This document shows positions 4,870 through 51,812 of a stretch of 64,000 nt of DNA, piece by piece. The notes under the pieces are model-generated. The model searched no databases. It worked only from the letters and a program-made list of their open reading frames with translations, and had not been told where the DNA came from. Every line of letters begins with the position of its first letter. Position 1 is the first letter of the stretch. The stretch is from Streptomyces sp. NBC_00178. Its GTDB lineage: Bacteria > Actinomycetota > Actinomycetes > Streptomycetales > Streptomycetaceae. The stretch lies in the NCBI RefSeq assembly GCF_036206005.1, contig NZ_CP108143.1:1364001-1428000 (forward strand), given 5' to 3'. A program made the translations under genes and the position numbers.

Positions 4870-5736
4870 TCAGGACTTGGCGGGGGCACCGAAGGCGGGG
4901 ATGATCGACCCCTTGTAGGTGTCCTCGATGAACTTCTTGACCTCGTCGGAGTTCAGGAGCTTGGCGAGCTTCTCGACCCGGGGGTCCTTCTCGTTGCCCT
5001 TCTTGACGGCGAGGAGGTTGGCGTACGGGTTGCCCTCGGCCTTCTCCAGCACCAGGGAGTCCTTGCCCGGCTGGAGGCCGGCCTCGATCGCGTAGTTGCC
5101 GTTGATGACGGCGGCGTCGACGTCGCCGAGGGCGCGCGGCACGGTCGCTGCCTCGAGCTCCTTGAACTCCAGGCCCTTCTTGTCCGTGATGTCACTGAGC
5201 TTCGCGTTCGTACCGACGCCGTCCTTGACGGTGATCAGTCCGTTCTCGGCGAGGAGCTGGAGCGCGCGGCCCTCGTTGGTGGTGTCGTTGGGGACGGCGA
5301 CGGTCTGGCCGGGCTTGATGTCCTTGAGTGCCTTGACCTTCTTGGAGTAGAGGCCGAGGGGTTCGAGGTGCACGTCGACGACCGGGACGATGTGGGTCCC
5401 GTTCTTCTTGTTGAAGTCGTCGAGGTAGGGCTTGTGCTGGAAGAAGTTGGCGTCGACCTGGCCGTTCTCGGTGGCGGTGTTCGGCAGGACGTAGTCCGTG
5501 AACTCCTTGACCTCCAGCTTGAGGCCGGCCTTCTGCGCCAGGTTCTTCTTGACGAAGTTCAGGATGTCGGCGTGCGGCGTCGGGGACGCGGCGACGACGA
5601 GGGCCTTGGAGGTGTCCGCGTCGGCACCCGTCGCGCCCTTGGCGGACGGGTCGGAGTCCGTACCGCAGGCGCTGAGCCCGAGGGCCAGGGCGGCGGTGAC
5701 GGCAGCGGCGGCGGAGAGCTTGATGTTCTTGCGCAC
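4870..5736 (-). CDS. metQ: Methionine ABC transporter substrate-binding lipoprotein MetQ (NLPA family)
   Basis: 288 aa lipoprotein. The signal peptide ends in a lipobox L-S-A-C at residues 21-24, so the mature protein is anchored outside the membrane. The NLPA fold is evident from VVAASPTPHADILNFV, NTATENGQVDANFFQHKPYL, VAVPNDTTNEGRALQLL and INGNYAIEAGL. Known members bind L- or D-methionine and deliver it to MetI/MetN. GTG start at 5736 with AGAGG upstream. It is the last gene of metN-metI-metQ, 82 bp after metI, and is followed by the 4805-4852 terminator. Confidence 0.93.
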   Translation of the reverse strand: MRKNIKLSAAAAVTAALALGLSACGTDSDPSAKGATGADADTSKALVVAASPTPHADILNFVKKNLAQKAGLKLEVKEFTDYVLPNTATENGQVDANFFQHKPYLDDFNKKNGTHIVPVVDVHLEPLGLYSKKVKALKDIKPGQTVAVPNDTTNEGRALQLLAENGLITVKDGVGTNAKLSDITDKKGLEFKELEAATVPRALGDVDAAVINGNYAIEAGLQPGKDSLVLEKAEGNPYANLLAVKKGNEKDPRVEKLAKLLNSDEVKKFIEDTYKGSIIPAFGAPAKS

Positions 5737-5818: not shown

Positions 5819-6490
5819 TCAGGAGGTGGTGCGTCCCCGGCGTGCCAGCAGGCGTACGGCTCCGTCGCCGATCAGCTGGACCGCGGTCACGATGACGATC
5901 AGCAGCGCGACGGTGATGAGCATGAACTGGTTGTCGAAGCGCTGGAATCCGTAGGTGACGGCCTTGGAGCCGAGTCCTTCGCCGCCGACCGCGCCGGCCA
6001 TCGCGGAGTAGCCGACGAGGACGATCACGGTCGTGGTGACACCGGAGACGATCGACGGCAGCGCCTGGGGCAGCAGGACCTTGCGGACGATGGTCGGGAT
6101 GGATCCGCCCATGGACTGGACGGCTTCGACGAGTCCGTGGTCGACCTCGCGCACCGCGGTCTCGACGAGCCGCGCGAAGAAGGGGATGGCGCCGATGGCG
6201 AGCGGCACGATCATCGCGGACGGCCCGATGAAGGTGCCGACGACCCAGGTGGTGAACGGGATCAGGGCGATCAGCAGGATGATGAAGGGCAGCGAGCGGC
6301 CGATGTTCACGATCACGCCGGTGACCTTGTTCACCACGGTGTTCTGCAGCAGTCCGCCCTTGTCGGTGAGGACGAGCAGGATGCCGAGCGGCAGCCCGCC
6401 GAGCGCGGTGACGAGGGTCGACCAGAACACCATGTAGAGCGTGTCGACGGTTCCCTGCGAGAGCAGTGGCTGCATTTCGGACCAGGTCAC
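5819..6490 (-). CDS. metI: Methionine ABC transporter permease MetI
   Basis: 223 aa with about five membrane segments (TALGGLPLGILLVL, GRSLPFIILLIALIPF, MIVPLAIGAIPFFARLVE, TTTVIVLVGYSAMAG, MLITVALLIVIVTAVQ). The EAA-type loop VEAVQSMGGSIPTIVRKVLL contacts the ATPase. Starts at GTG 6490, and the stop of metN overlaps it (GTGA, 6487-6490), so translation is probably coupled to metN. Confidence 0.93.
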   Translation of the reverse strand: MTWSEMQPLLSQGTVDTLYMVFWSTLVTALGGLPLGILLVLTDKGGLLQNTVVNKVTGVIVNIGRSLPFIILLIALIPFTTWVVGTFIGPSAMIVPLAIGAIPFFARLVETAVREVDHGLVEAVQSMGGSIPTIVRKVLLPQALPSIVSGVTTTVIVLVGYSAMAGAVGGEGLGSKAVTYGFQRFDNQFMLITVALLIVIVTAVQLIGDGAVRLLARRGRTTS

Positions 6491-7548
6491 TTCGCCACCT
6501 CCTTGGTGAGATCTGCGGGGGTGCGGTCGGCAGTGCCGGCGGAGTCGCCGTGCACGACCTCGGCCTGGAGGCCCTGCTCGCGCAGGAAGCCGATCGGTAC
6601 GACGTTCTCCTCGAAACGGCCGGGCAGTTCGATGCGCATGCGGCCGATCTGCTTGCCCCCGACGGTGTCCATCGCCGCGCCCAGGATCGAGATGTCGATG
6701 TTGTAGGTGCGGGAGAGCTGCGAGATCACCGGCCGGGCCGCCGACTCCCCGTGGAAGGTGACGTCGACGACCGTCTGCTCGGGACCGGAGGCGGAGCCGC
6801 CCACGGGGAACAGCTCGTGGGCCAGCTCGGAGCCGGGGGTGGCCAGCAGGTCGCCGACCGTGCCCGACTCGACGATGCGGCCCTTCTTCATCAGGGCCGC
6901 CGAGTCGCAGACCGTCTTGACGACGTCCATCTCGTGTGTGATGAGCAGGACGGTGAGACCGAGTTCCTGGTTGAGGTCGCGCAGGAGCTGCAGGATCGAA
7001 CGGGTCGTCTCGGGGTCGAGCGCCGACGTGGCCTCGTCGGAGAGGAGCACCTTCGGGTCACCGGCCAGCGCGCGGGCGATGCCGACGCGCTGCTTCTGCC
7101 CGCCGGAGAGCTGACCGGGGTAGGCCTTCGCCTTGTCGGCGAGGCCGACGCGGTCGAGGAGTTCCAGCGCCTTGCGGGTGCGCGCCTTCCCGTCGATGCC
7201 GAGGATTTCCAGGGGGAGCTCGACGTTGTCGCGGACGGTGCGTGAGTCCAGCAGGTTGAAGTGCTGGAAGACCATGCCGATGCGGCTGCGGGCCCGGCGG
7301 AGTTCCTTGCCTGCCCGGCGGCCGCGGCCCGCCAGGGCGGTGAGGTCCTGGCCGTCGACGGTCACGGTGCCCGAGGTGGGGCGTTCGAGGAGGTTGACGC
7401 AGCGGATGAGGGAGGACTTGCCGGCGCCGCTCTGTCCGATGACGCCGTGGACCTCGCCCTCGCGGACGTGCAGGTCCACGCCGTCCAGGGCGGTGACGTC
7501 ACGGCCGCGTGACTGGTAGACCTTCGTGAGGCCCGAAGTGGTGATCAC
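6487..7548 (-). CDS. metN: Methionine ABC transporter ATP-binding protein MetN with C-terminal NIL domain
   Basis: 353 aa from the GTG at 7548. The ABC domain has Walker A GQSGAGKSS, signature LSGGQKQR, Walker B KVLLSDEATSALD and switch LITHEMDVV. The C-terminal part from VVDVTFHGESAARPVISQLS is the NIL (ACT-like) domain that in MetN binds methionine and feedback-inhibits the transporter (family knowledge). I chose GTG 7548 because homologues begin VITTSGLTKVYQ; an in-frame ATG at 7602 would add 18 residues but has no better ribosome site. First gene of metNIQ, behind the leader peptide at 7761-7847. Confidence 0.92.
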   Translation of the reverse strand: MITTSGLTKVYQSRGRDVTALDGVDLHVREGEVHGVIGQSGAGKSSLIRCVNLLERPTSGTVTVDGQDLTALAGRGRRAGKELRRARSRIGMVFQHFNLLDSRTVRDNVELPLEILGIDGKARTRKALELLDRVGLADKAKAYPGQLSGGQKQRVGIARALAGDPKVLLSDEATSALDPETTRSILQLLRDLNQELGLTVLLITHEMDVVKTVCDSAALMKKGRIVESGTVGDLLATPGSELAHELFPVGGSASGPEQTVVDVTFHGESAARPVISQLSRTYNIDISILGAAMDTVGGKQIGRMRIELPGRFEENVVPIGFLREQGLQAEVVHGDSAGTADRTPADLTKEVAK

Positions 7549-7760
7549 AGGGTTTCCGTCGCTGTCGAGTGCACGGCGCGGTGTCCGCCGGGCACGGGGC
7601 ATTCGTCTGATGAGACTGTTCTCAGTGGTCGACCGGTGGGAGTCTCGGCACGGTCCGGCCCCGGGCGGGCTCGGAGACATGCGGGAGCAGGCTCGATCCG
7701 CAGGGCGCGGACGGCGCGGGCTCGGTCTCGCTTCGGGGCGCGAGGCTCAGGCGGGGGCCC
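7549..7760 (-). promoter_or_regulatory. Untranslated leader between the leader-peptide stop and metN, with an inverted repeat
   Basis: 212 nt with no other gene. It holds the perfect inverted repeat TGAGA-CTGT-TCTCA at 7611-7624, about 60 nt before the metN start, and several G+C-rich potential stems (for example CTCGC/GCGAG around 7722-7739 on the minus strand). If the upstream peptide controls an attenuator, the alternative RNA structures must lie here. No SAM-riboswitch core is recognisable. Confidence 0.4.
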
Positions 7761-7847
7761 TCAGAAGGCGCGCATTCGACACATACAACGAGCACCGGGC
7801 GTCGTGATCGCCTCGGTCGCAGGGATGCGGTAGCTCGTCGTGGTCAT
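7761..7847 (-). CDS. Putative Cys/Met-rich leader peptide of the metNIQ operon
   Basis: 28-codon reading frame MTTTSYRIP... ending ...GARCMCRMRAF, followed by TGA at 7761-7763, 212 nt upstream of metN on the same strand. Four sulfur amino acids (C-M-C-R-M) fall within five residues near the end, as in attenuator leader peptides where ribosome stalling senses the amino acid. The ATG at 7847 has only a close GGGA before it, so it may be leaderless or weakly translated. The position before a methionine importer supports a regulatory role; no experiment is implied. Confidence 0.55.
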   Translation of the reverse strand: MTTTSYRIPATEAITTPGARCMCRMRAF

Positions 7848-8110
7848 GTCCCAAGTAAAACAGACGTAATTTTCGGTCCGGACGCGCCGTCCGCATCCCG
7901 GACAGCCGTGGACGCGCCGCTCCCGCCCTCCGGATTTCCGGGCGCACCGCTGTGACCTGCATAAACGCCAGATCATCGGCGTGGGCCCGGCCGGCTGGGG
8001 AAGGGGCGGGCTGCGCCGGCGCTGTGGCAAAGGCCACGGTACGTACACGGGGACCGCACTCCGGTCGGCCCGCACGCGGGGGCCCGTGCCGTCCGTAATA
8101 CCCTCGCTCC

Positions 8111-51430: not shown

Positions 51431-51812
51431 GGATCCTCCTCGGTAGCACCACGCGACCGCCTGGCGGACAGCCACGTAACGTCTTCTGTGAGACCAACCG
51501 AGCCGGGAAAACAGAGAAGCCCCGGACGGGACACAGGCGGGGCTCCTGGAAATACCGGAACACCGCCGCGTCTGGCACGGGGCGCATCGGGCAGCTCCAT
51601 CGTCCGTACGGAACGATGGTCGCCACCAGACCGGTGACCCGCCATCCGCGAGGACGGTCGGGTGGGAGATCGGAGCCTCCACTTGTGGGCCGAGCACATA
51701 GGTGTCCGGCCGGTCGTTACCCAAGGCTAGCAGCCCGGTCGCGCGTGCGCTAATTCGTCCCCCGGCGGCTCCCGCGGGAGGGGCTCGCGCGGTCTGGCCT
51801 TATCGTGTGGGC
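51431..51812. other. infC leader and divergent promoter region
   Basis: 382 bp. On the minus strand it carries the hairpin at 51518-51544 and further G+C-rich stems; on the plus strand, TATCGT at 51801-51806 may be the -10 of the nearly leaderless DUF1844 gene. No credible gene is present. Confidence 0.5.
51518..51544 (-). terminator. Attenuator-like hairpin in the infC leader
   Basis: Minus strand AGCCCCG, 13-nt loop, CGGGGCT, then the U-rich stretch TCTCTGTTTT. It sits about 90 bp before the infC start, where intrinsic termination could adjust IF-3/L35/L20 synthesis. Confidence 0.5.

Follow-up and report, generated by a model that had tools for sequence, protein, structure and literature searches.

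metL, a conserved Cys/Met leader frame within a structured RNA, as a candidate ribosome-mediated regulator of metNIQ in Streptomyces

A short open reading frame that ends in a cluster of cysteine and methionine codons precedes a methionine importer operon in Streptomyces sp. NBC_00178, which raises the question of whether its translation controls the operon. In the window, that is, the whole 64,000-nucleotide stretch of DNA analyzed, this frame, metL, occupies positions 7761 to 7847 on the minus strand (the strand of all leader and transporter features given below) and translates to MTTTSYRIPATEAITTPGARCMCRMRAF*, 28 codons and a stop. Near its C-terminal end, four of five consecutive residues are sulfur amino acids, and the codons for Cys21-Met22-Cys23-Arg24-Met25 (TGT ATG TGT CGA ATG, 7773 to 7787) form the candidate stall site. 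The stop codon is separated by 212 nt from the GTG start, at 7548, of metN (6487 to 7548), which encodes a methionine ABC transporter ATPase and is followed by metI (permease, 5819 to 6490) and metQ (substrate-binding lipoprotein, 4870 to 5736). MetN, MetI, and MetQ are the top NCBIfam matches for these three genes, all below the curated cutoffs (TIGR02314 ABC_MetN, 369 bits; NF008049 MetI, 198 bits against a cutoff of 212; MetQ and the MetQ/NlpA family for the third gene), and the start position of metN is conserved across the compared loci. Translation and the measured distance bear out what a sequence-only reading of this DNA had described, namely, a 28-codon frame on the metN strand, ending in R-C-M-C-R-M-R-A-F, 212 nt ahead of a methionine importer operon.

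An ortholog of this frame has been published. In Streptomyces lividans TK24, metL (SLIV_29928) lies in the same position upstream of metNIQ and encodes a peptide of the same type, MSTTSDRTPATEATTTPGARCMCRRMCAF* (PMC8079986, Table 4; 2021). Transcription starts at its ATG according to RNA-seq, that is, the transcript is leaderless, and metL was described as an attenuator peptide of metNIQ for which a typical Rho-independent terminator was not seen (PMC8079986). The window carries the same ATEA..TPGARCMCR-type peptide in a short frame directly upstream of metNIQ, with a different tail (CMCRMRAF, compared with CMCRRMCAF in S. lividans). The leader peptide, the leaderless start, and the attenuation proposal are therefore already known, as annotation and prediction. 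The published account covers one strain and includes no RNA fold, conservation analysis, or test, and no experimental test of metL was found in the literature searched. The present analysis adds the fold and the conservation; new are the evidence of translation, the genus-wide reach, the RNA architecture, and the identification of Arg-Met plus at least one Cys as the constant feature.

Of 101 Streptomyces genomes, 19 gave a total of 20 matches in a degenerate search for the tail. These matches share the same 27 nucleotides, and a sequence-only model built from them was used for a genome survey. The model detects metL in 287 of 296 Streptomyces genomes, mostly as one copy per genome, a frequency that describes a sample of genomes and includes the expected matches of the model to its own training sequences. 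Several other Streptomycetaceae genera are matched as well. A structure model additionally gave one convincing match, from a different family of the same class (E = 5e-7); in this genome, a short frame upstream of metN ends in MGCTRCRRMCGC*, and both GAGGGCCCC and the hairpin recur after its stop. At every locus in which metN could be placed, it lies downstream of metL on the same strand. Seven Streptomyces genomes without metL were searched for metI: five also lack metI, one has only distant homologs (44% and 38% identity), and in the remaining one metN is cut by a contig end. Nonconservation of the short frame, which the sequence-only reading had named as grounds for doubt, is thus not what the genus presents.

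The reading frame itself is preserved. Among 153 extracted leaders, the distance from the ATG to the terminal CG(A/C)ATG takes 11 values between 66 and 96 nt, and in each of the 152 leaders that bear the motif it is divisible by three. Whole-codon length changes are what a translated frame predicts, so this pattern indicates that metL is probably translated; as a peptide, metL is well supported. MetL ranges from 26 to 37 residues, and the extra codons, as in CMCRLMCRMCAF or CMCRVAPRACRMCAF, are found after the Cys-Met-Cys part but ahead of the terminal Arg-Met-Cys. Within the last ten residues, no leader lacks Cys and only one lacks Met. The nearly constant feature is Arg-Met plus one or more Cys, whereas the exact C-M-C varies among leaders.

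Constraint extends to the codons. The Arg of Arg-Met is encoded by CGA in 147 of 150 leaders, compared with 2.7% of the Arg codons in metN and neighboring coding sequence; the Cys before this CGA is encoded by TGT in 122 of 126 cases, compared with 1.7% of the Cys codons in the same set. GCT, GGT, and CTT are further kept codons, and synonymous variation in metL is nearly absent. With synonymous sites nearly frozen, the nucleotides are held as well as the residues. Moreover, GAGGGCCCCC, which overlaps the metL stop and continues past it (7753 to 7762), is kept even when the stop moves or changes (TGA or TAG). The signature anticipated by the sequence-only reading, a conserved C-M-C with synonymous variation around it, is therefore not seen.

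The upstream sequence is consistent with a leaderless transcript, as judged by spacing. A promoter-like element, TCTGTTTTACT (7854 to 7864), stands ∼6 nt before the metL ATG and is the only site of its type with an ATG at such spacing in the window; across nearly all loci, TCTGNTTTACT is found about 6 nt before the ATG. Together with the S. lividans data, this suggests that the transcript in the window starts at, or very near, the metL ATG. Further upstream, the palindrome GTCCGGGATGCGGAC (7889 to 7903) is a possible operator, and the corresponding GTCCGNNATNCGGAC is present upstream of the promoter element in most loci. A whole-genome scan found nine copies of the palindrome pattern, compared with one for a reversed control pattern, and these copies did not define a sulfur regulon, as they mark no coherent gene set. 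A second palindrome, GTGGC-N-TT-N-GCCAC, occurs in the window at 8023 to 8037, and in five loci where the GTCCG palindrome is missing, this second type is found close to the metL promoter.

Much of the nucleotide constraint in metL can be attributed to RNA structure. Consensus folds and pair counts define a three-way junction inside the frame (7785 to 7841), composed of P1 (7833 to 7841 with 7785 to 7793), P2 (7818 to 7829), and P3 (7794 to 7817). In P1, codons 3 to 5 (ACGACGAGC) pair with GCTCGTTGT just before Met22, with P2 and P3 in between; this places the Cys/Met codons at the 3′ foot of P1, and the closing stem ends at the first codon of Cys-Met-Cys-Arg-Met. The stop is followed by a hairpin, H4 (CUCGC-GCCCCGAA-GCGAG, 7727 to 7744), that lacks a U tract. 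In the junction and H4 combined, 92% of the cells are paired and 10 of 26 pairs show changes in both partners (for example, AGC/GCT becomes AAC/GTT in other genera), whereas none of 500 shuffles reached either value. Another hairpin, P5 (GUGC-CGGCG ... CGCCG-GCAC, 7569 to 7595), lies upstream of the metN start, with 91.7% of the cells paired, a percentage reached by none of 500 shuffles, and both-side changes in 6 of 9 pairs. For both sets of counts, the structures were derived from the same sequences that were scored, and the shuffles ignore relatedness. None of these stems, P1 to P3, H4, or P5, accounts for the TGT-CGA immediately 3′ of the junction. In two loci, a GC-rich hairpin (about ggggg..cccgctcgagcgaag..cgagagtgggggagcccc) located just after the leader stop appears to be an insertion within H4, in the manner of a repeat element.

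Searches of the metL-metN region found neither a known riboswitch nor an intrinsic terminator. An Rfam scan, including a relaxed threshold, detected no riboswitch or other known RNA family in it; the leader matches no Rfam covariance model for a SAM or any other riboswitch, in agreement with the earlier statement that no SAM riboswitch precedes metN. Elsewhere in the window, the sole Rfam match at the gathering threshold is Scr1601 (RF02830), a Streptomyces sRNA (155 bits, 51512 to 51718, minus strand). A terminator search of the metL-metN leader found no site resembling an intrinsic terminator, the same remark as that made for S. lividans (PMC8079986), so termination before metN in its classical form, as the sequence-only reading had it, is unlikely. 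Of the leader-peptide attenuator proposed there, the conserved in-frame Cys/Met leader stands, now joined by covarying RNA; the C-M-C signature with synonymous variation falls away. In ten loci, the metL-metN interval is longer and contains a second short frame that ends in a conserved CR(L/I)AH(D/H)PQPPG motif. These loci belong to several Streptomycetaceae outside or distant from the clade of the window, whose 212-nt interval has no such frame. This frame may encode another leader peptide, with Pro-Pro-Gly as its stall motif.

We consider it probable that metL is a ribosome-mediated cis-regulator of metNIQ, in which a ribosome stalled at the Cys/Met codons changes the fold of the leader RNA and increases metNIQ expression. 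In the mechanism that we infer, the transcript would begin at or near the metL ATG, the 28-codon frame would be translated, and the nascent RNA would fold as the three-way junction, its closing stem ending at the Cys-Met-Cys-Arg-Met codons. A shortage of charged tRNA-Cys or tRNA-Met would make the ribosome pause on the sulfur codons and keep the junction open; the paused ribosome would also cover the next segment and so withhold it from an inhibitory fold, in which its partner may be the region just ahead of the metN start. With that fold prevented, metN would be expressed. Conversely, an ample supply of sulfur amino acids would let the ribosome finish quickly, and the leader would refold to the inhibitory state. 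This direction, in which starvation switches metN on, is suggested by analogy with other amino acid leader peptides. Because no terminator with a U tract is present, the output would most likely lie either in the translation of metN or in Rho-dependent termination within the 212 untranslated nucleotides.

A more elaborate version of this scheme specifies the inhibitory fold. Here, metL would be a combined Cys/Met sensor in a leaderless three-way-junction open reading frame whose end, UGUCGAAUGYGCG, reaches over ∼200 nt and locks the metN start in competition with P5, giving terminator-free translational attenuation, with the Arg-Met(-Cys) end possibly acting as a nascent-chain sensor as well. 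In many Streptomyces, this leader end is complementary at 12 of 13 positions to CGCGCACUCGACA, about 14 to 27 nt before metN; the tentative partner in the window is 7563 to 7575 (UGUCGAAUGCGCG). The best complement falls within 45 nt before metN in 113 of 150 leader transcripts, and the pairing energy of the leader end with the metN start region averages −16.7 kcal/mol, compared with −12.6 ± 2.7 kcal/mol for controls. The partner overlaps one arm of P5, so the two pairings would compete. However, P1 to P3, H4, and P5 covary and the long-range pairing does not: in 36 divergent genomes whose metN-proximal site has changed, CG(A/C)ATG persists in the leader and the own partner pairs no better than others (−12.3 and −12.5). 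Pairing of the leader end with the metN-proximal segment is thus tentative, and with no covariation, the long-range lock is kept only as a minority hypothesis; the elaborated scheme as a whole is one that we hold to be possible, at rather low probability. Codons of metN were also considered as partners of the post-stop GAGGGCCCC, for which they offer the best site in 83 of 132; this pairing is probably coincidental, as it involves ordinary Gly-Leu codons.

The pause itself could have another cause. The Arg-Met-Cys end, with its rare CGA, might arrest the ribosome through the nascent chain in response to a metabolite, such as methionine, SAM, or cysteine, rather than to tRNA charging. An Arg precedes the last internal Met in all 150 anchored leaders, three to four residues before the stop, which is more specific than a charging sensor needs, and CGA is retained almost throughout despite its rarity. 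The residue after this Met, however, is Cys in 110 of 150 leaders and Arg in 39, the window being of the Arg type; the residues upstream of Arg-Met vary in number and kind; and CGA could be retained for RNA reasons. Arrest of this kind is unlikely.

Because synonymous sites are nearly frozen, some of the conservation could also be due to RNA structure alone. Taken to its limit, this would make the frame incidental to a three-way junction that binds a sulfur metabolite as a riboswitch-like aptamer. The covarying junction and the near-invariant nucleotides, including codons rare in metN, fit such a view, but an aptamer predicts neither the whole-codon length changes in 152 of 152 leaders nor an invariant Arg-Met and an ever-present Cys in frame beside the stop, and Rfam has no match; we regard it as improbable. 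Still less probable is that MetL is a small functional protein, merely cotranscribed, that acts in trans or on the transporter. A conserved peptide adjoining metNIQ might suggest this, but the N-terminal half is largely dictated by RNA stems, the length is variable, and no NCBIfam model matches the peptide. A chance open frame, which the very short length and lack of a family match might suggest, is effectively excluded by frame-preserving conservation across hundreds of genomes and by the rarity of such an end, at least four Cys/Met in the last nine residues, in 1 of 784 frames (all frames of 15 to 50 codons in the window).

Regulation by a ribosome translating metL, the favored reading, has partial counterparts in known systems. 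Like the classical attenuators of Actinobacteria (trp, ilv, and leuS leaders; PMC1262725), metL presents a leader, probably translated, that is enriched in codons of the relevant amino acids and whose RNA folds; unlike them, it lacks a U-tract terminator hairpin. In Actinobacteria, the LEU element ahead of leuA likewise combines a leader peptide with a conserved RNA structure, and the abstract describing it reports no terminator; LEU is a pseudoknot according to its authors, whereas in metL nested hairpins covary and the pseudoknot-like long-range pairing does not (PMC1262725). A similar layout is found in mycobacteria, where conserved Cys-rich upstream frames are known (PMC4633059; earlier prediction in PMC1262725) and cysteine-responsive attenuation by leaderless polycysteine small frames has been described (Canestrari et al. 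2020, cited in PMC9031893). These systems share with metL a small leaderless frame that carries Cys codons close to its stop, a position before a sulfur-related operon, and, in the predicted cases, no obvious terminator. In metL, however, Cys is interspersed with Met and Arg (CMCRM) instead of forming a contiguous run, the target is a methionine importer, and a conserved three-way junction lies in the frame. For this genus, a warning comes from the ilvB leader peptide of Streptomyces coelicolor, where changing the candidate regulatory codons had no effect (PMC1262725).

With these results, what was an annotation in one strain becomes an element of the whole family whose codons and stems are named, so that it can be tested by a few point mutations. 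Methionine and SAM supply affects Streptomyces growth and antibiotic production. If confirmed, metL would add methionine import to the processes governed by amino acid leader peptides in Actinobacteria, together with a form of control that works without an intrinsic terminator.
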